64,000 nt of DNA, taken from contig NZ_SPQP01000014.1 in the NCBI RefSeq assembly GCF_004571075.1, positions 1 to 64,000 of the forward strand, written 5' to 3'. Below are positions 18,412-39,869 of this stretch, piece by piece (the stretch's first letter is position 1; every line of letters begins with the position of its first letter). The notes below the pieces were generated by a model. It was not told the origin of the DNA, searched no databases, and saw nothing but the letters and a program-made list of their open reading frames with translations. Made by a program: the position numbers and the translations under genes. The stretch is from Blastococcus sp. TF02A-35 (GTDB taxonomy: Bacteria; Actinomycetota; Actinomycetes; Mycobacteriales; Geodermatophilaceae).

Positions 18412-19520
18412 CCGGGGGTCCTCCAGTCGGGTGGGTCGGCGGCCGACAGCGCCGGGTCGTCGGCGGACAGCGTGCGCACCGGGCCGGGCGGCGTCAACGG
18501 TCCCTCGAAGCGCACGGTCACCCGGCCCAGGCCGCGGCCCCACACCCAGCCGGCGCCCAGCTCCTCGTGGCGCACGTCCTGCCCCGGCCACCAGCGCTTC
18601 TCGACCGGCAGCTCCACGGCCTCGGGGGCGACCTCCGGCTCGGTTGCCGCCGCCTCCGCGTCGGGGCCGTCGTCGGTGAGCAGCCCGTCGGCGAAGAGGT
18701 CGCCCTGCGCGTAGACCGACAGCCCCGAGACGCCGACGCCGAGCAGCCGCAGCCCGCCGGCGGTCCCCGCCTCGGTGAGCAGCCGGCGGGCGGTGGCGGC
18801 GATCAGCCGCGGGTCGTCGGTCGGCTGGGGGAGCGTCTGGGAGCGGGTGAGGGTGGTGAAGTCGTAGCGCCGCAGCTTCAGCGTGACCGTCCGGCCCGAG
18901 ATCGCGCCCTTCCGCAGCCGCTCCCCCACCCGGGCGGCCATCGAGTCGATCTCCCGGCCCAGCACGTGGACGTCGGTCAGGTCCCGCTCGAAGGTCTCCT
19001 CGTGCGAGACCGACTTGACGTCGCGGTCCGGGACGACGGCGCGGTCGTCGTCGGCGCGCGCCAGCGCGTGCAGGCCGGCGCCGTGCGCCCGGCCGACCAG
19101 CGCGACCAGGTCGCTCAGCGACCGCCCCGCCAGGTCCCCGACCGTCTTCACCCCCACCTGGTGCAGCCGCTCGGCCGTCGCCGGGCCGACGCCCCCCAGC
19201 CGGGTCACGGGCAGCGGGTGCAGGACCTCGAGCTCGCGGCCCGGGGCGACGACCACCAGCCCGTCGGGCTTCTGCAGGTCGGAGCCGATCTTGGCCATGA
19301 GCTTGGAGCTGCCGATGCCGATGGAGCCGGTCACTCCCCCGGTCGCCGCGGCGATGCGGTCCTTCAGCTGGTGCCCCAGCGCGGTGACGCCGTCCACGGA
19401 GAGATCCACCCCGTCCGCGGCCGCCAGGTCGACGTAGGCCTCGTCGATGGACAACTGTCGGGTGTTCAAGGCGTGTCGTTGTACTGACCTGTCGAACCCC
19501 CCTGCCAGGGCGCCGATCAT
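18408..19520 (-). pseudogene. dinB: 3' part of chromosomal dinB (DNA polymerase IV), cut by the element
   Basis: Host sequence runs from 18408 to 19453 and encodes Pol IV from SIDEAYVDL to the end, including the helix-hairpin-helix, little-finger domain and a clamp-binding-like AQGDLF. The N-terminal palm with the first catalytic Asp is missing; it lies 20 kb away at 39556-39869. The reading frame continues into the element as far as an ATG inside the left terminal inverted repeat (19520), which adds about 23 foreign residues, so a 370-residue fusion could in principle be made. It would lack the catalytic HLDLDA motif. The stop overlaps the start of the FAD oxidase gene. Confidence 0.92.
19447..19453. 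repeat. left 7-bp direct repeat (ATGGACA) at element boundary
   Basis: ATGGACA, equal to TGTCCAT on the dinB coding strand, covering the codons of Val-Ser-Ile before the catalytic Asp-Glu. The same seven bases occur at 39556. It may be a shared crossover core or a target duplication. Confidence 0.85.
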
Positions 19521-19524
19521 GGTC
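19470..19524 (+). repeat. left terminal inverted repeat (55 bp)
   Basis: Matches the reverse complement of 39487-39541 at 51 of 55 positions; both begin GGCGTGTCGTTGTAC. It contains an outward-facing ATG (19520) that opens the frame fused to the dinB remnant. Likely recombinase-binding arm. Confidence 0.92.
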
Positions 19525-19701
19525 TGCGGACACCGCTGAGCGCGTTGGCGCCGGTGATGCGGCAGTCCTCAGTGACCTGCCGATGCACCTCTACGACACT
19601 GCTCGGCGAGGGCGACCGGCCTTCTCCGGTCACGAGGCGGTGCATGTCAGAGAGCATCCCGCTTCGGGCAGGGTGGATGAAGCAACAGGGTGGGAGGCAG
19701 G
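19525..19701. promoter_or_regulatory. leader of the element dinB with nested inverted repeats
   Basis: Gene-free stretch between the left terminal repeat and the element dinB. It has ATGCACC (19583) paired with GGTGCAT (19639), enclosing a GACCGG-CCTTCT-CCGGTC hairpin (19614-19631). It should hold the dinB promoter. No full SOS box of the TCGAAC-N4-GTTCGA type was found, only a half site TCGAAC at 19492 in the terminal repeat. Confidence 0.35.
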
Positions 19702-21054
19702 ATGCGCGACACCGCCAGCATCCTCCATCTCGATCTTGATGCCATGTTCTCTGCCGTCGAGATGCGCGACAAGCCGTCTCTCGTCGGGAAGCCTGTTGTG
19801 GTCGGCGGAGTCAGAGGACGGGGTGTGGTGGCGACCGCCTCGTACGAGGCGCGGGCCTACGGCGTTCACTCCGCCATGCCCACCGCTGAAGCCCGTCGGC
19901 GGCTGCCCTCGGGTGCCGCCTTCCTCGGCGGCCGGTTCTCGGCTTACCGGATGACGTCCGAGGTCGTGATGGCGGTCCTGTCCGAGTTGTCGCCGATCGT
20001 CGAGCAGGTCTCGATCGACGAGGCGGTCGTTGACCTTGCTGCCAGGGAGAATGCCGACCTGAGCGTGGCGGGGGTGACCGCGCTGGGTGAAGCCTTGAAG
20101 GCGCGGGTGGCGGAAGCGACCGGAGGCGTGACGGCGTCGATCGGAATCGCGTCGTCGAGAATGCTGGCCAAGATCGGCTCGGACTTGAACAAGCCCAACG
20201 GGTTGACTGTGGTTGCTCCTGGTCAGGAGTTGGCCGTGCTACATCCACTGCCGGTGACCCGGATCGCCGGTGTCGGCCCGGCCACTGCGGAACGGCTTCG
20301 TCAGGTCGGCGTCCGCACCGTCGCCGAACTTGCGAGCAAGTCGCTTCATGACCTGGTGACGCTGTTCGGCAAGGCGCACGGGAGCGGGCTCTACCACCTG
20401 GCGCGGGCCGAGGACGACCGTCCTGTGGTGCCTTACCGGGAAGCCAAGTCGATCTCGGCGGAGGAGACGTTCGAGCGAGACCTGACCGACATGCCAGCCC
20501 TGACTCGCGAGATCGAGTTGCTGGCACAACGGGTAGTTCGTCGGCTCCGCGCCGCGAACTCTTCCGGTCGGACGGTGACCCTCAAGGTCCGGCGCTACGA
20601 CTTCACGACGTTGACTCGGTCCCTTACGCTGCCGCACCCGACGGATGATCCGACGGAGGTCACCCAGATCGCTCGGCGCCTCCTTGTGCAGGCGGGAGCG
20701 ACCGGCGGCATCCGCTTGCTCGGCGTCGGTGTTTCTGGGCTGTCCGACTTCGTGCAACAGGACCTCTTCACGGACTCGGTCCCTGAGGATGACGAAGCGG
20801 AGGCCCTTGACGAGGACGCCGCTCCCTCACCTGGCGAGGTGGCGCGACCTGTTCAACCTCGCATCTGGCACCCAGGGCAGGACGTCCGCCACGACGAGCA
20901 CGGGCCGGGATGGGTGTGGGGCAGTGGGCTCAACCGGGTGACCGTTCGATTCGAGGGTCCCGGTACGCCACCCGGCCCAGTGCGCACCTTCTTCGCCGAC
21001 GACGAGGCGCTCCATCCCTCCGAGCCCCCGGATTGGCGGCGCTCGCCGGAGTGA
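19702..21054 (+). CDS. dinB: DNA polymerase IV (Y-family), element-borne full-length copy
   Basis: A 450-residue Y-family translesion polymerase. It has the palm motif [14 protein letters not shown] with the first catalytic Asp and the steric-gate Phe kept (the residue before the gate is Met instead of the usual Phe), YEARAYGVHSAMP, then VSIDEAVVDL with the second Asp/Glu pair. HhH and little-finger domains follow, then a clamp-binding QQDLF near residue 355. The ATG at 19702 follows GGGAGGC. Its sequence is colinear with the split host protein throughout, so it can replace the lost function. At the motif where the host gene was cut its codons read GTC TCG ATC, which removes the TGTCCAT core. 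First gene at the element's left end. Confidence 0.93.
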   Translation: MRDTASILHLDLDAMFSAVEMRDKPSLVGKPVVVGGVRGRGVVATASYEARAYGVHSAMPTAEARRRLPSGAAFLGGRFSAYRMTSEVVMAVLSELSPIVEQVSIDEAVVDLAARENADLSVAGVTALGEALKARVAEATGGVTASIGIASSRMLAKIGSDLNKPNGLTVVAPGQELAVLHPLPVTRIAGVGPATAERLRQVGVRTVAELASKSLHDLVTLFGKAHGSGLYHLARAEDDRPVVPYREAKSISAEETFERDLTDMPALTREIELLAQRVVRRLRAANSSGRTVTLKVRRYDFTTLTRSLTLPHPTDDPTEVTQIARRLLVQAGATGGIRLLGVGVSGLSDFVQQDLFTDSVPEDDEAEALDEDAAPSPGEVARPVQPRIWHPGQDVRHDEHGPGWVWGSGLNRVTVRFEGPGTPPGPVRTFFADDEALHPSEPPDWRRSPE

Positions 21055-21090
21055 GGACGGCCCTGGGGTGCTCGTAGTCGCTGACCGACG

Positions 21091-22563: not shown

Positions 22564-22989
22564 CTACTCGCTCAGATTCGAGTCGTGGCCGTCGCCGTCG
22601 CCGGTGGCTCGGGACATGGTGACCAGGCGGCGCAGGCAGTGGTCGCGGAGCGGCTCGGGGAAGTCTGCGGCGAGGCGGTAGTAGACGACGCGGCCTTGCT
22701 TGCGGGTGGTGACCAGCCCGGCCGTGCGGAGCAGGCGCAGCCCGTAGCCGACTGAGTCCACCGTCGCGTCCAGGGCCAGGGCGATGTCGCCGACGCAGAG
22801 TTCTTCGACGAGGTCGAGGGCGTAGAGGATGCGTGCTCGCACGGGGTCGGCGAGCAGGCTCAGCGTGCCCGCCAGCCAGCCAGCATCCTCGGCGCTCAGG
22901 CCCCGACTACGGGCGTGGGCGACCCGCGTCGGGTCGACCGGGTGGTCATGCCCGGCGGCGCTGTGCCCGCCGTCGGTCGGCTCGTCCAT
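22564..22989 (-). CDS. ArsR-family metal-responsive repressor
   Basis: A 141-residue winged-helix repressor. The core LADPVRARILYALDLVEELCVGDIALALDATVDSVGYGLRLLRTAGLV is ArsR/SmtB-like, and ELCVGD is the usual position of a metal-binding Cys at helix 3. His-rich N- and C-terminal ends (HSAAGHDH, DGDGHDS) could add ligands. The start at ATG 22989 follows AGGAGG by five bases; a GTG at 22995 is also in frame. It is divergent from the copper-storage gene and flanks a perfect operator-like palindrome, so it likely represses both genes and releases them on metal binding. Confidence 0.82.
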   Translation of the reverse strand: MDEPTDGGHSAAGHDHPVDPTRVAHARSRGLSAEDAGWLAGTLSLLADPVRARILYALDLVEELCVGDIALALDATVDSVGYGLRLLRTAGLVTTRKQGRVVYYRLAADFPEPLRDHCLRRLVTMSRATGDGDGHDSNLSE

Positions 22990-23013
22990 GGCCACCTCCT
23001 ACCGCTGACGAAA

Positions 23014-23037: not shown

Positions 23038-23128
23038 CGCCGTGAGTCATCGGGTAGGCGAGCCTTGCTGGGCATTGAGCCGACGGCATCTGGGCCGACG
23101 GCCACCAGCCGAAGGAAGGGGCAAGCCG

Positions 23129-23536
23129 ATGACTGTCGCCGCGCAGATGCTGGACACCTACCCGAAGGACCTCGGCGGAGTGGACAAGGACAAGTTGCGG
23201 GCCTGCATCGAGGCGTGCTTCGAGTGCGCCCAGGCGTGTACTGCTTGCGCCGACGCCTGTCTGAGCGAGGACATGGTCGCCGAACTGACCAAGTGCATCC
23301 GCACCAACCTCGACTGCGCCGACGTCTGCGACAGCACGGGGCGAGTGCTGTCCCGGCACACCGGCTACGACGCCAACCTGACCCGCGCGGTCCTGGAAGC
23401 CTGCGCTGCGGCCTGCAAGGCGTGCGGTGACGAGTGCGAGCAGCATGCGTCGATGCACGAGCACTGCCGGGTCTGCGCCGAGGCGTGCCGCCGGTGCGAG
23501 CAGGCGTGCCGCGACCTCATCACCTCGCTCGGCTGA
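23129..23536 (+). CDS. cysteine-rich four-helix-bundle copper-binding protein (Csp type)
   Basis: A 135-residue protein with about eighteen cysteines spaced along helices (CIEACFECAQACTACADAC, then CAAACKACGDEC and CRVCAEACRRCEQAC). This is the pattern of Csp copper-storage proteins (DUF326 type), which hold many Cu(I) ions in the core of a four-helix bundle. No signal peptide is seen, so it is cytosolic (Csp3-like). The ATG at 23129 follows GAAGGAAGGGG. Its promoter region carries the ArsR-type operator. A double palindrome follows the gene. Confidence 0.88.
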   Translation: MTVAAQMLDTYPKDLGGVDKDKLRACIEACFECAQACTACADACLSEDMVAELTKCIRTNLDCADVCDSTGRVLSRHTGYDANLTRAVLEACAAACKACGDECEQHASMHEHCRVCAEACRRCEQACRDLITSLG

Positions 23537-23559
23537 CAAGCGCCCCCATCAGCAGACCT

Positions 23560-23592
23560 CCGGGCGCCCGGAACACCAGTCCGGGCGCCCGG
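23560..23592 (+). terminator. two copies of a 12-bp palindrome after the Csp gene
   Basis: CCGGGCGCCCGG occurs at 23560-23571 and again at 23581-23592; together they can form one long hairpin with a 9-nt loop. Likely terminator. Confidence 0.6.
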
Positions 23593-23680
23593 ACGCCGTC
23601 ACGGAAATCGCGGCCAGTCAGCAGTGGCAGCAGTCGCGAGGAACGCCCCACACACCGACGAAAGAACGGGGTTCTTTATC

Positions 23681-24289
23681 ATGGCGACGAAGCGCAGCGA
23701 CGAGACAAACCAGCACGCTCACGGCGACGACCAGCACGACGGCGCCAAGATGGAAAAGAAGATGTACCTGCGCTTCGGCGCGATGATCCTCACGGCCATG
23801 GTCGTCATGTACTGGACCATGTTCGCGGGCACGTGGCAGTGGAGCCACGTCCGCTTCAGCGAGAGCCGGGTCTTCATGGCGCTCACCATGGGCGGAACCA
23901 TGGGGCTGGTCATGCTCGGCTGGATGCTGAACATGTACAAGAACACCAAGGCGAACATCGCCATCGTCGCGGCCAGCCTCGTCCTGCTCGGCACAGGCGT
24001 GTTCCTCGACCGCAGCCAGATCCTCGTGAACGACGAGAACTGGATGAGTTCGATGATCCCCCACCACTCGCTGGCCATCACCCGGTCCGAGCGCGCCCAG
24101 ATTTCCGACGTCCGCGTGTGCGAGTTGGCCCGTTCGATCAGCGAGGCGCAGCGACGGGAGATCCTGGAGATGGAGTGGCTCATTGACGACATCAACCGCA
24201 ACGGCGATGCCTCGACGCCGGAGGAGGCAGAGGCGCGGGCGGTCCCCGAGTTTCAGGTGTCGCCCGAACGGGACTGCCCGACCGGCTGA
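23681..24289 (+). CDS. membrane DUF305 protein
   Basis: A 202-residue protein with a His-rich N-terminal tail (HAHGDDQHDG), three hydrophobic segments between about residues 25 and 105, and a C-terminal DUF305 segment with the signature MIPHHSLAI. DUF305 proteins are common in copper and mercury islands and are presumed periplasmic or membrane metal binders. The ATG at 23681 was chosen over an upstream in-frame start because of composition; the ribosome-binding site is weak. It is convergent with a second DUF305 gene. Confidence 0.8.
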   Translation: MATKRSDETNQHAHGDDQHDGAKMEKKMYLRFGAMILTAMVVMYWTMFAGTWQWSHVRFSESRVFMALTMGGTMGLVMLGWMLNMYKNTKANIAIVAASLVLLGTGVFLDRSQILVNDENWMSSMIPHHSLAITRSERAQISDVRVCELARSISEAQRREILEMEWLIDDINRNGDASTPEEAEARAVPEFQVSPERDCPTG

Positions 24290-24291
24290 CC

Positions 24292-24329
24292 GCCATCGGC
24301 GGCGGAGAACACAGTCCGCCGCCGATGGC
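24292..24329. terminator. perfect bidirectional hairpin between the two DUF305 genes
   Basis: A perfect 15-bp stem (24292-24306 with 24315-24329) and an 8-nt loop between convergent genes. Confidence 0.8.
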
Positions 24330-24335
24330 TGTGGC

Positions 24336-24959
24336 TCAGCCGCCCAGTTCGGTCAGCAACTGCCGCATCTCGGCGATCTCGCCGTTCTGCGTATCGCGGA
24401 TGTCGTTCGCCATCTCCAGCGCTTCGGTGTTCTGGCCCTCTCCGGCCTCGGTGGTGGCCATCTCGACGGCGCCGGTGTGGTGCTCGATCATCTGCTCCAG
24501 GAAGAGCCGGTCGAACTCCGCGCCTGAGGCGGCCATCAGGGCGTTCATGTCCTCCTCGGACATCATTCCGCCGCCGTGGTCCATGCCGCCGTGGTCCATG
24601 CCGCCCATGCCGTCGTCTTCGGCGCCCCACTCCTTCAGCCAGCCGGTGAGGGTGTCGATCTCGGGCTGCTGGGCGGCCTCGATGCGGCTGGCCAGGTCGA
24701 GCACGCGCGGGTCCTGCGCCCGCTCGGACGCCATCTGCGCCATCTCGATGGCCTGCTGGTGGTGCGGGATCATGCCCTGGGCGAAGGTGACGTCGGCGTC
24801 GTTGAACGCAGCGTCCTCGCTGGCGGACGTGCTGGTCGATTCGGCGCTGCCGCTGTCCATCGAGTCCATGTGCGAGGCGACGGAGTCATCGGAGCAGGCG
24901 GTGAGCGCGAGCGCGCCCGCGAGGAGGGCACCGGCGAGCAGAGTGGTCTTGCGGGTCAT
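24336..24959 (-). CDS. DUF305 lipoprotein
   Basis: A 207-residue lipoprotein: signal peptide with the lipobox LTAC, then a Ser/Thr linker and a duplicated DUF305 domain. MIPHHQQAIEMA lies in the first half and MIEHHTGAVEMA in the second, separated by a Met/His-rich loop (MGGMDHGGMDHGGG). The paired His and Met residues suggest copper binding outside the membrane. It sits in the copper block of the element, convergent with the membrane DUF305 gene. Confidence 0.88.
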   Translation of the reverse strand: MTRKTTLLAGALLAGALALTACSDDSVASHMDSMDSGSAESTSTSASEDAAFNDADVTFAQGMIPHHQQAIEMAQMASERAQDPRVLDLASRIEAAQQPEIDTLTGWLKEWGAEDDGMGGMDHGGMDHGGGMMSEEDMNALMAASGAEFDRLFLEQMIEHHTGAVEMATTEAGEGQNTEALEMANDIRDTQNGEIAEMRQLLTELGG

Positions 24960-25559: not shown

Positions 25560-28028
25560 TCAGCGCGACACCGGCTGCGGGGCTCGGGGTGCCGCCGGTT
25601 CGGGAGCGGGTGCCTCCGGGGCCTCGGGCAGCCGCAGCCGCTTGAGCAGCAGCGCGTTGACCGCGACCAGGAACGACGAGCCGGACATCGACAGCGCAGC
25701 AATCTCGGGCCGCAGGATTAGCCCGAACGCGGGCTCGAAGACCCCGGCGGCGATGGGTAGCGCGATCGCGTTGTAGCCGATCGCCCACCCGAGGTTCTGC
25801 CGCATCTTCCGCAGGGTGCCGCGCCCGATCTGCAAGGCGATCGGCACGTCGAGCGGGTCGGACCGCATGAGCACGACGTCGGCGGTCTCGATCGCGACGT
25901 CGGTTCCCGCGCCGATGGCGATGCCGAGGTCGGCCTGTGCCAGCGCCGGGGCGTCGTTGACGCCGTCGCCGACCATGGCCACCCGCTTGCCGGACTGCTG
26001 CAACTCGGTGATCTTGGCGGCCTTGTCGCCGGGCAGGACCTCGGCGATGACGGTGTCGATGCCCAACTGGTCGGCGATTCGCCGGGCGGTGGCGGTGTTG
26101 TCGCCGCTGAGCATGACGACCTCCACCCCGGCCTCGTGCAGCGCGGCCACGGCCGCGACCGAGGTCTCCCGTGCAGCGTCGGCCAGCGCAATCACCCCGA
26201 CGGCGCGGCCATCCACCGCGACCAGCACCGCCGTCCGGCCGCTACCCGCCAACTCGTCCCGCCGGGCGCCCAGGGACCCGAGGTCGACGCCCTCATCGGC
26301 CATCAACTTCGCGTTGCCGACCAGCACCCGACGACCGTTCACTTCAGCGCTCGCTCCGTGGCCGGGCACGTTGCGGAACCGCTCGGCGGCCAGGACAGGG
26401 ACGCCACGCGCCTGCGCCTCGCGGACGACGGCCTGGGCAAGCGGGTGCTCGGACTCCCGCTCGACGGCGGCGGCGAGGACGAGGAACTCGTCCTCGTTCA
26501 TGCCCTCGACGACCACGTCGGTGACCTCCGGCTCGCCCTTGGTCAGGGTGCCGGTCTTGTCCATCACCACGGTGTCGATCCGGGCGGCGGCCTCCAGCGC
26601 GGTGGCGTTCTTGAACAGCACGCCTCGCTGGGCGCCGAGGCCGGTGCCGACCATGATCGCCGTCGGGGTGGCCAGGCCGAGCGCGTCGGGGCAGGTGATA
26701 ACCACGACGGTGATCGCGAACAGCATGGCCATGGCGAACGAGGCCCCGGCCAGCAGCCACACCGCCAGGGTCAGGCCGCCGCCGATCAGCGCTACCAGCA
26801 CCAGCCAGAAGGCGGCGCGGTCTGCCAGCCGCTGGCCAGGCGCCTTGGAGTTCTGCGCCTGCTGGACCAGGGCGACGATCTGTGCGAGTGCGGTGTCCGC
26901 GCCCACCTTCGTGGCGCGCACCCGCAGGGTGCCGGTGGTGTTGACCGAGGCGCCGATGACTTCCGAGCCGGTGGCCTTGTGTACCGGCAGGCTCTCGCCG
27001 GTGACCATGGACTCGTCGACCTCGGACCCGCCGTCCTCCACGACGCCGTCCACCGGAATCTTCGAGCCGGGCCGGATGAGCAGCAGGTCGCCGGTGACGA
27101 CGTCGGCGGTGGGCACCTCGACCGGCTGGCCGTCGCGGATAACGACCGCCCGAGGTGGCGCCAACTCCAGCAGCGCCCGGATGGCGTCGTTCGCGCCGCC
27201 ACGGGCGCGCATCTCGAACCAGTGGCCGAGCAGCACGAAGGCGGTCAGCACGGTGGCGGCCTCGTAGAAGACCTCACCGCCCCCGGTGAGCGTGATGATC
27301 AGGCTGTACAGCCAGCCCGCGCCGACCGCGACCGCGACCAGCACCATCATGTCCAGGGTGCGGGCGCGCAACGCGCGGTAGGCGCCGTCGAAGAAGATCC
27401 AGGCCGAGTAGAAGATCACCGGCAGCGACAGGATCAGCGAGAAGACGTCGTCGCGCAGCCCAAATGGGGCCGCCGCCTCGAAGCCGAGGACCTCTCGGCC
27501 GATCGGTGACCACAGCAGGATCGGGATCGACAGCAGCGCCGCGACCAGGAAGCGGTTGCGCATGTCGCGGGCCATGTCGTCCATCGACATCCCGGCGTGG
27601 TGACCGCCATGCCCCATCGCGTCCTGCGGCGTCATCCCCGCGTGCTCGCCATGCCCGGCGTGCTCGCCCTTGGGCTCTGCGGAGGCCGCCGTCATGGCCG
27701 CGTGGTCGTGCGGTGCCACCGCGCTCACGGCGGGACGGTGACTGTCGTGTGCCATCGCCTGGTCACGCGGCTCAGCGGCCGGGTCGCACACGTGCTGCGG
27801 AACCGACTGTCCGGCGCAGTGGTAACCGCAGTCGCGCACCCAGCCCGCCAACTCCGCCACCGATGTGCGCGACGGGTCGTAAGTGACCGTCGCCGTCTGG
27901 GACACCGGATTCGCCTCGACGCTCAGCACGCCGGGGCGCCTGCCCAGCACGCTCTCCGCCACGGCCTTCTCCGAGGCCCAGTGCACGCCGGAGACCTCCA
28001 GCACGGTGGTCTGATGCTGCGTTGGCAT
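25560..28028 (-). CDS. copper-type P1B ATPase (CopB/CopA-like) with Cys-Pro-Asp motif
   Basis: An 822-residue heavy-metal pump. Residues 1-70 form a ferredoxin-like HMA domain that lacks its CxxC metal site (GVHWASE). A His/Met-rich linker follows (about residues 90-145, including [10 protein letters not shown]). The pump core has about eight membrane segments, the TGES actuator loop, DKTGTLT, SEHPLAQ and [11 protein letters not shown]. The membrane metal motif reads Cys446-Pro-Asp, in place of CPC or CPH. Overall resemblance is to CopB-type exporters. The ATG at 28028 starts the HMA domain. A CsoR-like operator lies 46-60 bases upstream. Likely copper export. Confidence 0.88.
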
Positions 28029-28073
28029 GACCCGCTCCCTCTCGTCGGTGGGCTGTGCCGCCTCCAAGGCTAG

Positions 28074-31044: not shown

Positions 31045-31171
31045 GATGTCAGTCTGAACAGGTAGGCATCGGTGACCCGATCGGGTGGCCCTACGCCTGT
31101 AGATGTGGACGCCTAGTGCCGACGTCCATGATGTGACTTCGCAGGTCAAGCGGACGGGAGGGAGGGTCTCG

Positions 31172-32281
31172 ATGGTCGACCGCAAGCGCGAGGCGGAGAT
31201 GACCCGCTTCGACTCCTTGCTCTGGCAGTTCGCTGACCTGGGGCAAGACCTCGGCTCCCTCACCGACTCGGTCAGCCGCGCGTCCGGTTCACCGACCGAG
31301 GCGATCGCCGTCGAGACGGTGATCGCTGGCGAGGAGAACCCAATCGCAGTGATCTCGGAGGTTGTCGAGGGCGACCTGCTGACGGTCGGATTGGTGTCGC
31401 TGCTTCGGGTCGTCGATGAGCGCGGTCCGTTCGTGCTCGGCGCGTGGCCGACCGCGCACGAAGGCGTGTTCCACCTCGTGGGTAGCGTCCCCACGACCGA
31501 TCCTCGCTGGCAGAGGGTCGAGCGGTGGGTCGCCAACGTCGCTCCCGAGGTCGTCCCGGTCTTCCTCGACCACGATGACTTCACCGACATCGGCACAGCC
31601 CTCTCGGAGTTCGGTGAGGTAGAGGTCAGCCGACTGACCGCCCGCAAGCGCTCCGACCAGTCCTCGCTGAACCGTGGCTGGGCTGCCCGCTCGGGCTCCC
31701 TGCGCCCGTCGCACCATGAGGCCATCGGCAATGCCGAGGCCGAGGGTGCATCGGTGCGCACCCTGACGCTGCACATCGCCGACCGGATCAGCCTGCACCT
31801 GCGTCGGCGCGCTGGTGCCACCTTCTATACCGGCGACTTCGTCCTGTTCGACCGCATCGTCCTCGGCCGTCTGGCCACTGCGGCGAACCGGCGTCGCGCC
31901 CTCATGGCCGGACGCCAGCGCCAGATCGACGCCCCACCTCCGGAGCCGATCACCATCCGACTGCCAGGACCAATCCTGGTCGACGCGGAGGCCACGGGAG
32001 AGGTCCTCGCTGAACTTGAGCGGCAGCGCGGCATCGCGATCGCGGTCCTGCACCGCAACCCTTACCTGCACGTCGTAGTTACCGACTACTCGGACGGCTC
32101 CAACTTCGACGTCTTCGTGACCACCCCGGACGCCATCGAGGTACACCCCGGCTTCCGATCCAGTCTCGGCGCGCTCACCCGCCTCGCGCAGAGCCTCGGC
32201 GACCGCTTCGAAGCCCTAGAGATCACCGAAGCGGCACCGCCGGAGCCCGTGTCGCTCGACGACCTGGTCGCGCCGTTCTGA
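31172..32281 (+). CDS. unknown protein A of a two-gene unit in the element
   Basis: A 369-residue soluble protein without recognised family. The N-terminal third reads like a helix-plus-sheet domain (MVDRKREAEMTRFDSLLWQF, then AVISEVVEGDLLTVGLVSLLRVVDERG), the middle is rich in hydrophobic strands, and the end has SDGSNFDVFVTTPDAIEVHPGFR. There is no signal peptide or membrane segment. GGAGGGAGGG ahead of the ATG at 31172 supports the start. The next gene begins one base after its stop, so the pair is surely co-transcribed. Lower GC at third positions than the flanking chromosome. Confidence 0.6.
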   Translation: MVDRKREAEMTRFDSLLWQFADLGQDLGSLTDSVSRASGSPTEAIAVETVIAGEENPIAVISEVVEGDLLTVGLVSLLRVVDERGPFVLGAWPTAHEGVFHLVGSVPTTDPRWQRVERWVANVAPEVVPVFLDHDDFTDIGTALSEFGEVEVSRLTARKRSDQSSLNRGWAARSGSLRPSHHEAIGNAEAEGASVRTLTLHIADRISLHLRRRAGATFYTGDFVLFDRIVLGRLATAANRRRALMAGRQRQIDAPPPEPITIRLPGPILVDAEATGEVLAELERQRGIAIAVLHRNPYLHVVVTDYSDGSNFDVFVTTPDAIEVHPGFRSSLGALTRLAQSLGDRFEALEITEAAPPEPVSLDDLVAPF

Positions 32282-32282
32282 C

Positions 32283-33296
32283 GTGACTACGTCCTCACCG
32301 CCCGGTGCCGCCGAACAGGCGCTGCTGACCGAGTACGAGACGTACGACCAGCACGTCGACGTGGTCTCAGCGTTGGAGTGGCTGTTCACCGACCCCGCCG
32401 TGAAGGGCATGCCCGCCACGGTCAGCCACTTCGAGCGGTTCCCCCGCATTCCGGTCGCAGGCAAGCGAGACCCCCTGACGCCGGACTTCACGGTGCTCTT
32501 CAGCGACGGCAGTGCCGTCATCGGCGAGATTGCCAAGTTGGCGCTGCACGAGAACAGCCTGGACAAGGTCTGCGCCCAGATCGGCGGCTACGCCGTCCTC
32601 GACCGCGTTCCAGATGGACGTGGTGGGCTGGCTGCGGTGTCCCACCTCGACGTGATGCTGCTCGTGGAGGCCCAGGTCGGTCTCCCCGCGATCCGCCGCG
32701 TGATCAAGGAGCGCTACCTCGACCCCGAGCATCCCTACAAGCCGCCCCGGCCTCCCTGTATCGCCCAGTTCTTCCGCACCGAGTCGGTGTACACGCTCCA
32801 GCGACTGCCCGACCCGGACAACGGCGTCCTCTACAGCGGCCAGCGAGAGCCGCACATCGGTGCCCGCCTCGACGAGGGGCTCAACATCAAGGCCAGCCAC
32901 TTCGTCGCCACCAAGGCGCACCGTGCCTTCATCAACGATCCGATCAAGCCGCTCTACCTGGCCACCCACCTGTGGACTCGCACCTGGCCCACCCAGTTCG
33001 GCGGCGGGCGGGAGGACATCACCGTCGAAGAGAAGGCCACCACCACACTCCTTCAGAAGCAGTACGGCGTCGGCGGGATCACCGTGGTCCGCCGAGCCCT
33101 CGAACTACTGGAACGAGCCGGACTTGCCGCCAACCAGGGGGACGGCACGTGGATCGTCTCCCGCAAACTGCTCGGCCGATCTGGCGAACGAGACGTGCAC
33201 AAGATCATCGCGCGACGGGCGACGACCAAGCCGACTCGCCTAGTCCCACGCCGACCGGCGCCCAAGTCGGCCGCCTCGCAGGACACGCTGTTCTGA
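32283..33296 (+). CDS. unknown protein B of the unit, possible nuclease-fold N-terminus and winged helix
   Basis: A 337-residue protein. Around residues 60-90, LTPDFTVLFSDGSAVIGEIAK followed by SLDKVCAQIGGYAVLD resembles the core of PD-(D/E)xK folds (PD, then Glu and Lys, then a helix with Gln), though the spacing Glu-x-x-Lys is off the classic Glu-x-Lys. The C-terminal part (EEKATTTLLQKQYGVGGITVVRRALELLERAGL) looks like a winged helix. The GTG at 32283 starts one base after the upstream stop. Possible defence, DNA-processing or element-maintenance role; function unknown. Confidence 0.55.
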   Translation: MTTSSPPGAAEQALLTEYETYDQHVDVVSALEWLFTDPAVKGMPATVSHFERFPRIPVAGKRDPLTPDFTVLFSDGSAVIGEIAKLALHENSLDKVCAQIGGYAVLDRVPDGRGGLAAVSHLDVMLLVEAQVGLPAIRRVIKERYLDPEHPYKPPRPPCIAQFFRTESVYTLQRLPDPDNGVLYSGQREPHIGARLDEGLNIKASHFVATKAHRAFINDPIKPLYLATHLWTRTWPTQFGGGREDITVEEKATTTLLQKQYGVGGITVVRRALELLERAGLAANQGDGTWIVSRKLLGRSGERDVHKIIARRATTKPTRLVPRRPAPKSAASQDTLF

Positions 33297-33355: not shown

Positions 33356-33880
33356 TCAGTCCACGATCACCGGACGCCCCGCTACACGAAGCGGAGCGCT
33401 GACTCCGGCCAGACGTCGCGGCCCGGACTCCAACTCATCGATCCGGTCCTGCGCGGCAGCCAGCCGTTCCTCCAGCACCTCGGCCCGCTGCGCCGCCGTA
33501 GCCCAGTTCCGTTCTGCCTTGTCGAATGCGGCCACCGCTACGGCGAGGTTCTCCACGTACTGGTCGTTCAACGCCTCCAGGCGGGCGACGTCCTCGGTTC
33601 GTTGGCGCAGCCGCTGCTCCAGGGCGCCGATCCGTTCACGCAGCCGGAGGACGTAGGCGGGCTCCTCCTGCTCCCCGGATTCTGCGACGCGCCGGTAGAA
33701 CAAGTCCTTGAGGTCGGTGTGCTTCTGCGTGAGGCAGTGCCGCTTGACACCCGCCTCCTCGGCGAGGTCCTTGACCGTCAGTTTCCGAGTGGTCTGCCCG
33801 TTGAGCAGTCGGTCCATGGCTAACAAGATGGCTTGCCGCTCCTGCTCGTCGGACGTCCTCGCCGAACCAGAGGTGGTCAT
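33356..33880 (-). CDS. HTH plus coiled-coil protein of the recombinase module (TnpC/DUF6262-like)
   Basis: A 174-residue protein with a TetR-like N-terminal HTH (LTVKDLAEEAGVKRHCLTQKH) and a long coiled coil (LRERIGALEQRLRQRTEDVARLEAL to LEERLAAAQDRIDELE). Small HTH/coiled-coil proteins of this kind follow the recombinase genes of Tn554-type elements (TnpC) and help set direction or efficiency. The start overlaps the stop of the upstream zinc-finger gene by four bases. It is the last gene of the five-gene recombination operon. Confidence 0.7.
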   Translation of the reverse strand: MTTSGSARTSDEQERQAILLAMDRLLNGQTTRKLTVKDLAEEAGVKRHCLTQKHTDLKDLFYRRVAESGEQEEPAYVLRLRERIGALEQRLRQRTEDVARLEALNDQYVENLAVAVAAFDKAERNWATAAQRAEVLEERLAAAQDRIDELESGPRRLAGVSAPLRVAGRPVIVD

Positions 33881-34191
33881 CCGGAGGTCCCACTCCCTCG
33901 CTCACTCGGGGCGGCGCCCGCGGCAACCCGATCAGATCGTGACGGCGTGAGGTCACGCTTTTCGGCCGCCGTGGCGAATCGGGCACTCACCCGGAACCGT
34001 GCGAGCAGCCGCTCCACCTGCACTACCGACAGGCCCACCTCCCGCATCAGGTCACGGCGCAGCCGGACCTGACGGTTGAACGCCTGGCGGCAGGCGTCGC
34101 CGCAGAACCGGCGTGCGCGACCCGGACGACGCTCAGCGTGCAGCAACTCGGCGCCACAGTGTTCACACCAGCCGGGCAGGTCCGCCGCCAT
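33877..34191 (-). CDS. small zinc-finger protein of the recombinase module
   Basis: A 104-residue protein with WCEHCGAELLHAERRPGRARRFCGDACRQAFNRQ: two Cys pairs separated by about 18 residues, typical of a treble-clef zinc finger in DNA-associated proteins. A basic region (QVRLRRDLMREVGLSVVQVERLLARF) follows. The ATG shares its A with the stop codon of the third recombinase (TGATG), so translation is coupled. Probably a DNA-binding accessory factor for recombination; no named family can be given. Confidence 0.6.
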   Translation of the reverse strand: MAADLPGWCEHCGAELLHAERRPGRARRFCGDACRQAFNRQVRLRRDLMREVGLSVVQVERLLARFRVSARFATAAEKRDLTPSRSDRVAAGAAPSERGSGTSG

Positions 34192-36050
34192 CAGGCCACC
34201 TCGTGGTCAGCGATCGTGCGGTCGATGTCGGCCATCCGGTCAGTCAGGCGGATCGCGATCGGCTGAGCGGCATGCTCGACCTCCGCCGCCAACCCGGCGC
34301 GTTCAGCCTTCAGCCCCTGGATGTGCCGATCCGTACGGGCGTGGTTCGCGCAGTTGGAGCGGCAGTCGTCGAGGCTTGGGGTTGCTCGCTCCGCAGACGA
34401 CGCGGCAGGCGCGACATGGCATGCGGCGGTGCGCCGCTGGAACACGCACAGGGACAGGGCGCGGGGGTTGTCGTAGACCTGCATGCCGGGCGTCTTGGCG
34501 AGGCGGCGCAGTTCCTTGTCGGTCATCTTGCTGCCCGCGTACTGGCTGTCGTATCGGCTGATCGCCGCCTCCAGGCGTTCGCGGGCCGGTCCGCTGATCC
34601 GACCGCCGTTGCGCCGCTCGTCGGCCACTTCTTCGAGGCGTTCGACGACGGCTTGCATCTCCTCCACGTCGATCAGCCCCTGGAGGCCCGCCTCCGCGCG
34701 GCCTGCATAGCCCTGCCCGGTCACGACCCGGACGTGCCCGTACTGAACTCCGAGTGCCACCTCGCCTAGCGGCTGACGGGCGATGTGCCACGCCAGAGTG
34801 CGCCGGAAGCGAGGCAGGGTGACGGCCCCCTGCGGGTCGGCGGGAATGGGCGCCCAGCCCCTCGCGGCGGCGAGGCCGTCGTTGACGTGGGTGATGAAAG
34901 CGGCGATCCGCCGGTGGGCCTGTTTGGCGATCATCCCCGCGCCGGGGCGACCATCGCGCCTACGGCGCCCCCGAGGTAACAGCAGGTTGCTGTCGGCGTC
35001 TCGCGTGACGTGCCCATGCTCGTCGGTAGCGAGTGCGAGCACGTGTGCCGCTCGGATGGCGTCGGCGCCCGCCTTGATGGTCAGCCACGGCTGCTCGCGC
35101 AGTTGACCGGCGCTGATGTGGCGACCGTCCGCATCGCGAACTCCCTTGAAGTGCTTGCCGCGAACCTCGTAGCGCAGGGCGCCGTTGGGCCTCGTGAGGA
35201 CCGTCAGGCAGTCGCGGTCTAGGGAGAGAACTTCCTGGGGGCGCATGCCGGTCAGATAGGCGACCACGATCAGGCAGGCGCCCTGGAGCCGGTAGATCAC
35301 GCCCTCCGGCAGGACCAGGTCATCTGTGTCGCCGTACTCGTCCAGGAAGTCGCTGATGCAGGCGATGGCAGCGGTCAGCAACGGGCTGATGGTCTCAGGG
35401 GCGATGGGGGGTGTCTTGTTCTCTCCACCCTGCGGGGTGCCGATGAACGGGATCAGGCCCTCGGTCAGCCACCGGGGTGGGGGCAGACGATCGGCTGGCG
35501 GCAGCGTCCACAGGCAGCCGTACAGGCGGGCGACAGCGAGCAGCGGAGCCGCCCGCGCCTGGTAGGTGTTGCGGGTCTGCCTGATGTGGGTCGCGTAGTC
35601 GCGCAGGTCTTCGGTGGTGACGTCCCCGAGGCGCCGAACGAGGGGCCGCTCGGTGTTCAGCCAGCGGGCGAAGACACGCCACGAGTGCACGGCGTTGAAG
35701 GCGGTGGCGGCCGACGGCCACTGGGCCAACGCGATCGTCCGCTGGCCCACCATCTCCTCAGCCAAGCCCTGGTTGAGCATGGTCCAGGCGGCGGCACGCA
35801 GGACCTCGCGGAACCGCTCGGGCCACTCAGCCCAGGTGATGTTCCGCCGATCCATGGTGTCGCCGTGGTTGAGCATCGCCAGATCCCAGACGCCGTCCCC
35901 GTAGCGCGGGGCGGCGGAGGCGGCGTCGGCACGCACCTGATCGATTGGGAACGCGCTCATGGCCGGGTCCCAGGTCCACGCCTCCGTGTCGCCGACGACT
36001 GAGTGGCCCCGACCATCAGCGGGGTGGCCGGTTCGGTCGGGAGCGGTCAC
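34191..36050 (-). CDS. tyrosine recombinase, third of the trio
   Basis: A 619-residue integrase-family protein. The C-terminal catalytic domain has LTGMRPQEVLSLD (Arg I), RFRRTLAWHIAR (His/Arg box II variant) and GQGYAGRAEAG with the likely nucleophilic Tyr. A Cys-rich extension after the catalytic domain (CVFQRRTAACHVA, DDCRSNCANH) suggests a zinc-binding tail like that of Tn554 TnpB-type proteins. The start overlaps the stop of the second recombinase by four bases. It acts with its two neighbours to integrate and excise the element. Confidence 0.85.
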   Translation of the reverse strand: MTAPDRTGHPADGRGHSVVGDTEAWTWDPAMSAFPIDQVRADAASAAPRYGDGVWDLAMLNHGDTMDRRNITWAEWPERFREVLRAAAWTMLNQGLAEEMVGQRTIALAQWPSAATAFNAVHSWRVFARWLNTERPLVRRLGDVTTEDLRDYATHIRQTRNTYQARAAPLLAVARLYGCLWTLPPADRLPPPRWLTEGLIPFIGTPQGGENKTPPIAPETISPLLTAAIACISDFLDEYGDTDDLVLPEGVIYRLQGACLIVVAYLTGMRPQEVLSLDRDCLTVLTRPNGALRYEVRGKHFKGVRDADGRHISAGQLREQPWLTIKAGADAIRAAHVLALATDEHGHVTRDADSNLLLPRGRRRRDGRPGAGMIAKQAHRRIAAFITHVNDGLAAARGWAPIPADPQGAVTLPRFRRTLAWHIARQPLGEVALGVQYGHVRVVTGQGYAGRAEAGLQGLIDVEEMQAVVERLEEVADERRNGGRISGPARERLEAAISRYDSQYAGSKMTDKELRRLAKTPGMQVYDNPRALSLCVFQRRTAACHVAPAASSAERATPSLDDCRSNCANHARTDRHIQGLKAERAGLAAEVEHAAQPIAIRLTDRMADIDRTIADHEVA

Positions 36051-37846
36051 GTGTCATACCTCCGAGCCAGGGTGTTGTCGATCAACGCGCGGTCCTCGTC
36101 GGTGATGCGGCGGGCCGCGTCCTCGCGCTCGGCGGCGGTGAAGTGCCGGTTCAGCAGGTCGGTGAGCCGCAGCCAGTGCGGTGCCCAACGCGCCCAGGCG
36201 GGACTGTCCGCGAGGTGTTCGCGAAGCCCCTCCAGGCGCTGGTGCAGGTAGACCAAGCGCGGCAGGTGCCGGGGCACGACGACCGCGTTAGTGCAGATCA
36301 AGCAGAGCAGGAACGAGACCCGGCACGTCTGGTGGTTGCTCAGCGGGCTGTGATCGACGTCTTTGCACGCCCCGACTGGCGTGTCTAGGACGCCGCTGTC
36401 GATGGCATGCGCAGTACGGGGGTCGAGGTCAGCGTCCTGCTGGCTTGCCTCCGCCGTGGCCCGCAGCACCGTGACCGTCAGGGTGGCGTGGTCCAGGGCA
36501 CCGTTGAGCCCGTCCTCGGTGACGTCCTTGCTCTCTTCTCGCACCGTGGCGTCGTGGAGTTGGTAGACGTTGAGGTTGGTCGCCTCGCTGTGACCTTGCG
36601 GCCGAACCTGGCCGGTGTTCGTCCGTCGCAGCATCCGACGGTGGAACCGGACGGGTTGGCCCGCCTCGTCACGCAGGTTGACGTGGTCGGAGAACAGGCC
36701 CACCGCTCTCCAGAGGTTCGTCTTGCCCGACGTTGCTGCTGAGGTCACCCGGTCCAGCGCGCCCCGGCTTCCGTTTGTGCTGGTACGGGCGTAGATGAGG
36801 ACGGCATTCAGTGGGGTGCCACGTCGGTCCATCGCTCGGCGCCCTGGGGCGGTGATCTCCAAGACTTGGCGCAGGACGCTGGCGCCCGTGCGCAACCCGG
36901 TTTCGACCAGCGTGTTCGCGATGTGTCGCCAAGCGCCGAGCCGGGGCTTGTCCAAGCCGATGTTGTAGACGAGTCGGGCCTCATCGCCGCTGTCGGCGCG
37001 ACGGACGTCGTCGATGGTGAACGTCTTCCACATGTCCGGGTTCCAGCCCTCGTGCAGGCCGATGAGCGACATGATTGCCCCGGCTTCGACGGGGGTGAGG
37101 AACAGCCGTTCGACGGCCGTGACCCCTCGGCGACCGACGAGGCGTGCCGCCTCCGGGGCGATGTCCCTCGTGCCGTTGGCCAGGGTGATGCGGGGGACGT
37201 CGAGGTGCTCCTCCACGTGGGCGAGGAGAGCGCCCCAACGGCCCCTGTCCGTGTCGGGCTCAAGGCGCCCCGCCCGGTACTCCTCAAGGAGCGCCCACGA
37301 GCCCAGGATGCGTTCGTGTGCCGCGTCGAGGACCTCGTGCCCAACCCGCAGCACCCGCCGGGCCTGATCGGTCGTGAGGCTTGGTTGCACTTGTGGTGTG
37401 CGTGTCTTCTGTCGCGCGTTGACGGCGAGCGCGGTTCGGGGCTGCAACTGGCCGGTGGCGACCAGCATGCGTCTCAGCGTGCTGAGAGAGGCCGCCCAGC
37501 CGGGAGGGCGCCCGATGACGTATTCGTCCCACGTGGCGCGGGTCAACTCGCTCAGGGAGGACAGGTGGTGGCCTTCACTCTCCAGCCAGCGGAGGAAGTT
37601 GCCCACCGCATCCCACGAGAACTGGACCGTGGCAGGCCGTCGCCACGGCCCTCCTACGTCCACCTGGGTGGCGAACACCTCCGCCAGAGCCTCGCGGATC
37701 GGTGGTGCGCAGGGCAGACGGTTGAAGTCCCAGGACCCCAGCGGCTCGCCGTCCTCTCCCACAGGGGTGAGCACCAGGTCCGGAGAGAGCACCGGCGGCC
37801 GGGTGTACCCCATGGGCGCCCGGTCGGTGCGCGTGTCCCGAGGCAT
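36047..37846 (-). CDS. tyrosine recombinase-like protein, second of the trio
   Basis: A 599-residue protein of the phage-integrase superfamily, more divergent than its neighbours. A SAM-like N-terminal core-binding region (TVQFSWDAVGNFLRWLESEGHH) is followed by a catalytic-like domain with TGLRTGASVLRQV (Arg I), FHRRMLRRTNTG (box II-like) and NLNVYQLHDAT with a possible Tyr. A Cys-containing C-terminal part (CRVSFLLCLIC) follows. Catalytic residues are less clear, so it may have a structural role. Its start and the upstream stop share one base (37846). Confidence 0.75.
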   Translation of the reverse strand: MPRDTRTDRAPMGYTRPPVLSPDLVLTPVGEDGEPLGSWDFNRLPCAPPIREALAEVFATQVDVGGPWRRPATVQFSWDAVGNFLRWLESEGHHLSSLSELTRATWDEYVIGRPPGWAASLSTLRRMLVATGQLQPRTALAVNARQKTRTPQVQPSLTTDQARRVLRVGHEVLDAAHERILGSWALLEEYRAGRLEPDTDRGRWGALLAHVEEHLDVPRITLANGTRDIAPEAARLVGRRGVTAVERLFLTPVEAGAIMSLIGLHEGWNPDMWKTFTIDDVRRADSGDEARLVYNIGLDKPRLGAWRHIANTLVETGLRTGASVLRQVLEITAPGRRAMDRRGTPLNAVLIYARTSTNGSRGALDRVTSAATSGKTNLWRAVGLFSDHVNLRDEAGQPVRFHRRMLRRTNTGQVRPQGHSEATNLNVYQLHDATVREESKDVTEDGLNGALDHATLTVTVLRATAEASQQDADLDPRTAHAIDSGVLDTPVGACKDVDHSPLSNHQTCRVSFLLCLICTNAVVVPRHLPRLVYLHQRLEGLREHLADSPAWARWAPHWLRLTDLLNRHFTAAEREDAARRITDEDRALIDNTLARRYDT

Positions 37847-39501
37847 CAGGCTTCATCCCCGGCCACGTCTAGGACCCGGTGGGACCGCTGGCTGACCAGA
37901 GTTTCGAAGGCATCGATGTCGTCGGCGGGAGACGCATCCGCGTCCGGCTTGGCTGTCTCGCGGACGAGCGTTTCGAGGGCCTTGACGTCACGAACCGGGC
38001 TGTTCTCTCCGTCGGGCTGATGGATCATGTCCATCAGCCACTCCATCTGGAGACCCCGTACTGGCTCCAGGTACCAGTTCCTGGTCGTTGTGACGTCGGC
38101 GTGGCCCAGCAGGTCGCGGACCAACTCCCACACGTTGCCGAACAGTCGCTGATACCGACGGCGCTCCTCGGCGTCGAGGCCGCTGTCGATCAGGTACGCG
38201 CGCTGAGCGGCGATGAGCATGTGTAGGGCGTAGGAGTGGCGCAGCATGTGCGGCATCGCGAAGAGGGCAACGCCTTCCCGCTTCAATCGCTCGTTCGCGG
38301 CCCGGAAGATGCCGTCCCACTCGCGGTAGGGGAGCGGTGTGCCGTCGTCCTTCAGCCACAGCCACAGGGGCTCCAGCACCGCGCCGCGCTCCGTGGATAC
38401 TTCTCGGTAGAGGCGCATGCGATCGGCGGCTGAGAGGTCGTCCAGCCGCTGCCGTACCGGCTCTGCCGTTGGCTCCCGAGGGTCGAGCGTGGTGACCTCG
38501 GTCCCCTTCCCGGAGCCATGCACCGCCACCAGCAGCAGGCGGTCCTCAACGCGCTCATAGCGACCCTGCGCCTGGGCTCGCTGTACGGCCTGCTGCCGCT
38601 GGAAGCGAATGTAGGCGTGCAGTCCCCGTACGTAGCGCCGTTCGAGGTAGAACCAGCGCCCCTTGCCGCCCTTCCCTAGGGCCTCGGGCACCCATCCGGT
38701 GACCATGCTGCGGGTGCCCTCGTCGGCCGGAATCTCCAGGGTCAACAGCGCGCCGCCCTCCTTGCGGCGCATCCCAGTGCCGTACAGCAGGTTGACGAAG
38801 GCGACGTTGCGAGCCTGCGTGCGTACACGCTCGACGCCACGAGGCAGTCCGTTCGCCCCGTAGTCCTCGAAGCCGATCTGGCGCCACCGCTCGACCGCGC
38901 GGCGGGTTAACCACCGGACGTTCGACTTCCTCGCGTTCGACGGTGCTTGCTCCGCCCGAGGTGTTGACGGCCTGTCGTGGCGCGAGCCTCGACGCGGTCC
39001 CCCGCTGCTCATCACTACAGGGCTCGCGGTGATCAACTTGTCGCTGGCTGCCCACCGGTACAGCGATGACACCGCTGCCAGCACCTTGACCCACGACGAC
39101 CCGGTGATGAGTGTCTTCTTGCGGCCGCGACTGTCCTCGGTCTCCAACCGACGGCGGTCACGCCGCCGGAAGAACTCGAAGTTGCGCACGTCGTCGCTCG
39201 TCGCCCTGCACCAGTCGGTCTCCCCTCGGGTGTCGACGAGAAAGTTCAGCCACACCCTGATCTCAGTCGCGTAGGTCCGCTGAGTGTCGACCGCGTAGTT
39301 GGCCAAGTGGTCCGTCGTGTAGCGCAGCAGGCGCTGGTCAGGGACACCGCTGGGCGGAACGAACACGGCGTAGGGCTCACGGTCGAGTTGGGCCAGGGCG
39401 CGGGCGCGCTCGAACTGCCCCTCGTCCCACAGCGCCTCAACAGGCGCAGGGGTCCGTTGGGGCGACACCCACACCAGCCGCCACTCGACCATGATCGACA
39501 C
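37846..39501 (-). CDS. tyrosine recombinase, first of the trio
   Basis: A 551-residue integrase with a clear catalytic domain: GTGMRRKEGGALLTLEI (Arg I), PHMLRHSYALHML (His-x-x-Arg box) and HADVTTTRNWYLEPV with the nucleophilic Tyr. An N-terminal core-binding domain (YAVDTQRTYATEIRVWLNFL) recognises DNA. Possible starts are GTG 39501 or ATG 39492, both inside the right terminal inverted repeat, so the promoter must overlap the element end or lie in it. It is the first gene of the recombination operon, pointing inward. Confidence 0.88.
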   Translation of the reverse strand: MSIMVEWRLVWVSPQRTPAPVEALWDEGQFERARALAQLDREPYAVFVPPSGVPDQRLLRYTTDHLANYAVDTQRTYATEIRVWLNFLVDTRGETDWCRATSDDVRNFEFFRRRDRRRLETEDSRGRKKTLITGSSWVKVLAAVSSLYRWAASDKLITASPVVMSSGGPRRGSRHDRPSTPRAEQAPSNARKSNVRWLTRRAVERWRQIGFEDYGANGLPRGVERVRTQARNVAFVNLLYGTGMRRKEGGALLTLEIPADEGTRSMVTGWVPEALGKGGKGRWFYLERRYVRGLHAYIRFQRQQAVQRAQAQGRYERVEDRLLLVAVHGSGKGTEVTTLDPREPTAEPVRQRLDDLSAADRMRLYREVSTERGAVLEPLWLWLKDDGTPLPYREWDGIFRAANERLKREGVALFAMPHMLRHSYALHMLIAAQRAYLIDSGLDAEERRRYQRLFGNVWELVRDLLGHADVTTTRNWYLEPVRGLQMEWLMDMIHQPDGENSPVRDVKALETLVRETAKPDADASPADDIDAFETLVSQRSHRVLDVAGDEA

Positions 39502-39541
39502 CCTGGCAGGGGGGTGCGACAGGTCGGTACAACGACACGCC
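39487..39541 (-). repeat. right terminal inverted repeat (55 bp)
   Basis: Reverse complement matches 19470-19524 at 51 of 55 positions. It contains the start codon region of the first recombinase. Confidence 0.92.
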
Positions 39542-39545
39542 TAGT

Positions 39546-39869
39546 TCAGACAGAAATGGACACCGGCTCGACCAGCGGCGAGAGCTCGCGCAGCAGGCCC
39601 ATGACGACGTCGGAGGTGCGCCGGTAGGCGGCGAACCGGCCGCCGAGGAAGGCCGTGCCCGGCGGGCAGCGGCGCCGGGCCTCCGCCGTCGACATGGCCG
39701 AGCGGGCGCCGTAGGCCCGGGCCTCGTAGGACGCCGTGGCGACGACGCCGCGCCCGCCCACGCCGCCGACGACGACCGGCCGTCCGCGCAGCGAGGGCTT
39801 GTCCCGCTGCTCGACCGCGGCGAAGAAGGCGTCGAGGTCGAGGTGCAGGATGCTCGCCTCTCGCCTCAC
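39546..39869 (-). pseudogene. dinB: 5' part of chromosomal dinB, cut by the element
   Basis: Encodes the first 107 residues of Pol [19 protein letters not shown] with the first catalytic Asp and steric gate, then [13 protein letters not shown], ending LVEPVS before reading Ile-Ser-Val and a TGA supplied by the element. The GTG at 39869 follows GGAGG and overlaps the tenA stop by four bases, so this gene is the fifth of the thiamine operon. Without the second Asp/Glu it cannot be a polymerase. The rest of the gene is at 18408-19453. Confidence 0.92.
39556..39562. repeat. right 7-bp direct repeat (ATGGACA) at element boundary
   Basis: Same seven bases as at 19447-19453; it joins the dinB N-terminal part to the element end. 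Confidence 0.85.

Follow-up and report, generated by a model that had tools for sequence, protein, structure and literature searches.

Mobile elements usually limit the harm they cause by inserting at gene ends or in tRNA genes. What, then, is to be made of an element that cuts a conserved DNA polymerase gene in its active-site motif, yet brings along a whole substitute? This question is raised by a 20,102-bp element in dinB, the gene for DNA polymerase IV (Pol IV), of Blastococcus sp. TF02A-35 (genome G000; contig NZ_SPQP01000014.1, positions 1 to 64,000 of the forward strand, a stretch of 64,000 nucleotides referred to here as the window). Two further genomes, G012 and G505, which we take to be those of Blastococcus sp. 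TF02-09 and TF02A-26, have the same element at the identical codons of dinB. The case is strong on anatomy and movement: the element is real, recently mobile and site-specific. We consider it likely that this is a three-recombinase element, similar to GInts and strand-biased circularizing elements (SEs), which has the VSIDEA codons of dinB as its integration site and whose carried dinB restores Pol IV function.

The host dinB lies on the minus strand and is cut within its VSIDEA codons. The ends of the element are named by their distance from its recombinase A gene.

39556..39869, minus strand: 5' piece of host dinB, ending in the V-S-I codons; N-terminal part of the IMS domain (Pfam IMS, 1.9e-27)
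18408..19453, minus strand: 3' piece of host dinB, beginning in V-S-I and holding the D-E of SIDEA; rest of the domains (Pfam IMS_C, 4.3e-29)
39556..39562: A-proximal junction core, ATGGACA, as read from the sequence; varies by host
19447..19453: A-distal junction core, ATGGACA, as read from the sequence; varies by host
19454..39555: element from core to core, 20,102 bp; G012 and G505 copies each 99.92% identical to it
39487..39542, minus strand: A-proximal inverted end; 52/56 bases match the opposite end
19469..19524, plus strand: A-distal inverted end; 52/56 bases match the opposite end

The cut parts the catalytic residues, so that the first catalytic Asp and the Asp-Glu pair are on different pieces. 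A preliminary description of this locus had given the same coordinates for the pieces, with ATGGACA repeats flanking them; the inverted termini that it put at 55 bp are present and measure 56 bp, and a match of 52/56 is also obtained in comparison with the G012 copy. GInts are marked by a short 3' end that contains AT-rich stretches; here the A-distal 236 bp, taken as a whole, have a GC content of 65%, and the element one of 69%. The inverted end overlaps the recombinase A frame by 15 bases at the start of that frame, and the far end thus holds a copy of those bases. At the A-distal junction, the element supplies the host 3' piece with an in-frame ATG and approximately 22 codons (18408-19520), so that a truncated IMS_C-domain protein could be made.

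The hosts are three different species of the Geodermatophilaceae, G505 falling in another genus by the taxonomy used, and excerpts of PMC9516006 place the isolation of all three strains on granite at Fort Tiruchirappalli, India. Copies of the element are 99.92-99.98% identical, differing by 16 substitutions and one indel between G000 and G012, by 17 and one between G000 and G505, and by 5 substitutions between G012 and G505. The 16 substitutions between G000 and G012 in open reading frames (ORFs) comprise 9 non-synonymous and 7 synonymous changes and give no clear signal. Identity in the flanking dinB pieces is 89-90% for the 5' piece (90% for the window piece against both G012 and G505) and 82-84% for the 3' piece (84% for the window piece against G012 and 82% against G505), and each host dinB clusters with its own relatives in the tree. 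A near-identical element lying within divergent dinB genes that group with their own relatives argues, on sequence grounds, for recent transfer of the element between lineages, with insertion at identical codons each time. Read in the dinB sense, both cores are TGTCCAT in G000 and both are TGTCGAT in G012; G505 has TGAGCAT at its A-proximal end and TCTCGAT at its A-distal end. Because the junction cores differ by host, the insertions are separate and site-specific and not an artefact. The proposal in the preliminary description of an integrative element that targets a conserved motif of Pol IV is thus borne out by the use of the same codons in G012 and G505.

The four adjacent bases at which the two G505 cores differ are not accounted for by a simple target duplication; a short-spacer exchange, in which one end is kept from the donor, would fit them. 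The equal ends of G000 and G012 speak neither for nor against such a rule, which is known from SEs. The exchanged spacer is probably 6 bp long (GTCCAT in the dinB sense) within the 7-bp repeat, because CTGTC is symmetrical in both end arms. Among 58 family dinB genes (G448 unread and the partial G429 excluded), the spacer takes 14 forms and the arms are conserved, with a left arm of T[C/G]GAGCCGGT in 40/58 and a right arm of CGACGAGGCCTA in 45/58; recognition therefore seems to be seated in arms that are fixed by the protein sequence, with the spacer left free.

Uninterrupted dinB genes in element-free relatives, which the preliminary description had proposed to look for, are the rule. An orthologue was found as one single-piece match (at least 64% identity) in 20 of 23 genomes of the genus and 96 of 112 of the family, with no second match at that level; the pattern that would have spoken against an insertion, that is, relatives without the element that hold both the split and a second copy, is thus absent from these 96 genomes at that level. 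In the rest of the family, three dinB genes are split by the element, three are fragmentary without it (two overlapping pieces in G013, and pieces at contig ends in G429 and G490), and ten genomes have no orthologue match, nine of these coming from three divergent genera and one being incomplete. Six of the 96 single-piece genes were reported with one TGA in the matched stretch, and tblastn of three of the six gave no in-gene stop. The G013 gene (G013:C15:62500-64500), which is free of the element, appears as two overlapping matches in a frameshift-like arrangement that may reflect sequencing error or decay.

The substitute lies just inside the A-distal end, in the orientation opposite to that of the host gene.

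19690..21054, plus strand: element-borne complete dinB (Pol IV), 454 aa; Pfam IMS, IMS_C and HHH

Recombination between the two inverted dinB genes would invert the element rather than delete it. In agreement with the preliminary description, the encoded protein is a full Pol IV colinear with the two host pieces, to which it is 68% and 77% identical, and it retains the catalytic Asp and Asp-Glu. Against four intact dinB genes (four comparisons with 200 simulations each), the element gene has 0 stop codons and 119-129 amino-acid differences, compared with a mean of 8.0-8.9 stop codons (minimum 2) and 232-244 differences in neutral simulations. Its identity to family DinB proteins is 64-73%, and to those from outside the family at most 61% among the matches listed from a 394-genome class sample. 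In the tree, it falls outside the 62 family tips (G015 being present twice) with a modest support of 83, with one class sequence (L093) in between at a support of 84; its distance to four outgroup sequences is near the family mean (e.g., 2.03 vs 2.03, range 1.81-2.29). The sequence of the element DinB thus has the appearance of a Pol IV that is distinct yet under constraint. The possibility that a sampled chromosomal dinB was captured recently was considered and rejected on the strength of the modestly supported position of the element DinB outside the family tips. Self-immunity through a recoded site in the element dinB is a weak proposition; the Pro to Gln change is also found in 1/44 family and 3/29 class DinB proteins, and the Tyr113 to Val change is found in 0/73, yet the element protein departs at many other conserved positions.

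The genes that would move the element lie at its A-proximal end in the order A-B-C-(D)-E.

37846..39501, minus strand: recombinase A, 551 aa, a tyrosine recombinase with R, HxxR, GH and Y (Pfam Phage_integrase, 5.4e-10; alignment)
36047..37846, minus strand: recombinase-like B, 599 aa, without the box-I Arg (alignments; model weakly Cre-like)
34191..36050, minus strand: recombinase C, 619 aa, with R270, R417, H439 and Y448 invariant in six sequences (alignments; model Cre/XerH/Tn1549-Int-like)
33877..34191, minus strand: small Cys-containing ORF D, 104 aa; no Pfam match
33356..33880, minus strand: small protein E, 174 aa, resembling a coiled coil; alignable with the ORF that follows C in relatives

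B and C have no match in Pfam or NCBIfam, and their motifs were judged from an alignment with five relatives. The best structural matches of both models are tyrosine recombinases, with Cre at E 2.3e-5 for C (mean pLDDT 73) and, weakly, at E 4.6e-3 for B (mean pLDDT 65). By its sequence, we regard the machinery as a three-recombinase module that resembles those of GInts and SEs and is related in kind to Tn554. In the genus (n = 23), matches to recombinase A are found in G000 and G012 (approximately 100%) and G021 (31%); in the family (n = 112, E<=1e-25), in G000, G012 and G505 (approximately 100%), G500 (37%) and G451 (31%), with two additional 35% relatives in G505; and in the phylum sample (n = 396), in two genomes, G000 and G414. 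The distant relatives (31-37%) are therefore those of G021, G414, G500, G451 and G505. Further relatives occur on 156 plasmid records, all below 60% identity; no phage match was found at E<=1e-10 and no pattern match in viral_contigs. A peptide-pattern scan of 84,980 genomes, which reaches close relatives only, returned two loci, both copies of this element. At a locus in G505 (L049, G505:C48:100000-119000, approximately 4560-18650), a related three-recombinase element forms a near-exact tandem pair with a period of 7,046 bp, in which identical runs of 78 and 6,969 bases are separated by a single mismatch. Two loci of G414, from the same order (L051 and L052), contain recombinase modules that are related and share the A-type start, one of them apparently degenerate.

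How these parts might work together is suggested by comparison with known systems. Tn554 has radC as its target, whereas all three copies of the present element are in dinB, and we know of no Tn554 that carries a copy of its target. Phages and islands may rebuild the end of a target gene and so limit the damage to it; they supply only that end, whereas the present element supplies a whole orthologue. Tn554 also differs in having two recombinases, TnpA and TnpB, plus TnpC, and no middle member, where three recombinase-type genes are found here. It is similar in its tyrosine recombinases, its fixed target in a conserved gene and, probably, the donor core carried along, as described in excerpts of PMC10214605. 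The excerpted account of SEs in the same paper describes an intA-tfp-intB-small (srap) order with a non-canonical middle member, inverted ends, and a 6-bp fingerprint and footprint. The present module has this organisation in gene order and motifs, A and C keeping their motifs, B being without the box-I Arg, and E coming last after the extra ORF D. SEs further form a strand-biased circle and leave no empty site behind. In those excerpts, SEs are reported only from Gammaproteobacteria, whereas the hosts here are Geodermatophilaceae. The likeness to GInts is looser, and was judged by ginABCD-type organisation and motifs. As far as the excerpts of PMC5385486 go, it extends to three recombinase-type genes accompanied by a small protein, cargo that varies, direct repeats that are short and imperfect, a fixed choice of target, and one recombinase without its first Arg, which is the third gene in GInts and the second here; the extra ORF D before E is a further difference. 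According to that account, GInts are found at the ends of genes or in intergenic positions, and full inactivation of their targets is improbable, since gene ends are used or a promoter is supplied; the present element makes a mid-gene cut and carries a whole orthologue, and the excerpted GInt account contains no target replacement.

The closest precedent is the tnpABC transposon Tn552-II of Staphylococcus (Wan et al. 2025; PMC12486829), which carries a "target-gene-like" gene homologous to its target and introduces a 7-bp core at its far end. Its authors propose that the homologue may rescue the target, and state that similar data have been published on Tn553 (their ref. 22). A carried homologue of the disrupted gene is common to both elements, and so, probably, are exchange of a short core and a donor core at the far end. 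Tn552-II differs in its target (a yolD-like gene or a plasmid homologue), its tnpABC genes and its beta-lactamase cargo; the present element, known from three hosts, carries a complete DNA polymerase and three genes of recombinase type.

By analogy with Tn554, SEs and Tn552-II, A, B, C and E would form a circle whose joint bears the short spacer, and integration would swap this spacer with that of the target, such that the A-proximal end takes the target core and the A-distal end keeps the donor core. The carried dinB would then restore Pol IV function. A cost of hitting dinB is plausible, and the restored function would remove it, opening a target that is present in nearly every relative. We infer that the carried dinB replaces the host enzyme. 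The claim in the preliminary description that the element "pays its host back" was a good one as regards an intact and apparently constrained orthologue of the target; its functional part is drawn from sequence.

Several points weigh against this replacement. The three copies represent one recent element, and the pairing of target and substitute has been seen once. A second Pol IV paralogue (42-45% identical) is present in 23/23 genomes of the genus, and the host might thus tolerate losing dinB even if nothing rescued it. In the constraint test, which compares genes in pairs, change on the host branch is counted too. Of the positions conserved to at least 90% among 73 DinB proteins (44 from the family and 29 from the class, 3/73 being joined host genes), the element DinB departs at 15, five of them invariant, and its activity may therefore differ; by alignment to an E. 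coli-type Pol IV, one departure is a Phe to Met change next to what we take to be the steric gate. No consensus promoter was found in the 361 bases scanned before the element dinB for sigma-70 type elements, and no SOS box precedes it, GAACNNNNGTTC occurring twice in the window (8090 and 37100) and near neither dinB. Finally, at ten other loci with recombinase A relatives, a homologue of the A-proximal flank was found inside the element in 0/10, the window being the one positive in 11. This is a weak negative, as 7.6-21.4 kb were covered inside (8/10 below 20 kb), most short of the far ends, with a flank of 372 bases at L049 and an approximate start of A at L051 and L136; it leaves the generality of replacement as a single-case claim.

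The replacement of host Pol IV may be taken further. There may exist a class of target-replacement elements, a three-recombinase mode of life with a fixed, element-adapted complete orthologue of the target, in which host Pol IV is swapped for an altered one (Phe to Met) that changes mutagenesis; we put this forward tentatively, and think it doubtful on present evidence. Considerably less likely than replacement is the view that dinB is ordinary mutator or repair cargo, of the kind that Y-family polymerases sometimes provide on mobile elements, and that its match to the target is coincidental. A single independent element is available to judge by, and relatives of the element DinB do occur on plasmids (107 records at E<=1e-60), but all of these are below 60% identity (top 44.7%), so that the protein is nearer to family chromosomal DinB proteins (64-73%) than to any plasmid one. 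It is moreover the orthologue of the very gene that is cut, a match that chance would give in approximately 0.5% of cases by a rough estimate that sets about 20 cargo genes against approximately 4,000 genes of the host. Much less probable again is a carried dinB that serves as a decoy, a target mimic or a recombination partner (a site for further insertion) more than as a replacement. The element dinB does keep a target-like site, with the left arm TCGAGCAGGT (3/58 host dinB genes), the spacer CTCGAT, as at the A-distal end in G505, and the right arm CGACGAGGC followed by GGT (GGT in 0/58), and the tgl gene of Tn552-II likewise contains a core equal to its right-end core (PMC12486829). However, CTCGAT is also the spacer of 10/58 host dinB genes and its match proves little, and a decoy has no need of a constrained 454-codon frame. 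Assembly artefact, which the preliminary description had named as a possible source of the split, or cross-contamination among isolates of one study is scarcely credible even for strains that, by excerpts of the strain report, came from one site and one sequencing project, since two other assemblies, in which the flanks are different, have the same insertion. Within its contig, each copy is continuous with the dinB of its own host, the cores are not the same, and 5 to 17 substitutions separate the copies.

No account of an element inserted in dinB was found among the open-licence papers listed, and within these the suggestion in the preliminary description that whole-gene replacement may be undescribed is correct for dinB. 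A transposon of the Tn554 type with a target homologue had already been published as an idea with Tn552-II (PMC12486829). The principle is thus not wholly new, as Tn552-II precedes it with a target-like gene and a proposed rescue. A complete DNA polymerase as the substitute, another phylum and three independent insertions make the present case a new and stronger one. After Tn552-II, it provides a second example, in a different phylum, of an element equipped with a homologue of the gene it targets, and "target replacement" becomes a testable strategy. Should the carried Pol IV indeed behave differently, a mobile element would be resetting host mutagenesis as a by-product of its landing site.

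The remainder of the element is cargo.

31103..33296, plus strand: two function-unassigned ORFs, 392 and 337 aa, adjoining the recombinase module (family-library searches)
28264..31007, minus strand: F510_1955 protein, CDF transporter and ArsR-type regulator (Pfam, NCBIfam)
25560..28214, minus strand: heavy-metal P-type ATPase (Pfam E1-E2_ATPase, HMA)
23042..24959: DUF326 (plus), DUF305 (plus) and DUF305 (minus) proteins, probably metal-related cargo (Pfam)
22564..22995, minus strand: ArsR-type regulator (Pfam HTH_5)

At the limits applied, searches of Pfam, NCBIfam, PHROGs and PADLOC gave no match for the two ORFs at 31103-33296, and no conjugation genes were recognised among the element ORFs scanned. 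A reading as a defence system was rejected, the PADLOC matches on E being coiled-coil proteins and those on an 84-aa HTH protein generic. With its metal ATPase, CDF transporter, pair of ArsR-type regulators, one DUF326, two DUF305 and one F510_1955 protein, the cargo looks like one for copper or metal resistance, DUF305, DUF326 and F510_1955 proteins presumably being linked to copper. No plasmid record covers 80% of the element; 147 records matched, and the 20 listed all represent the metal ATPase, which among these listed matches has 80-83% DNA identity to actinobacterial plasmids.

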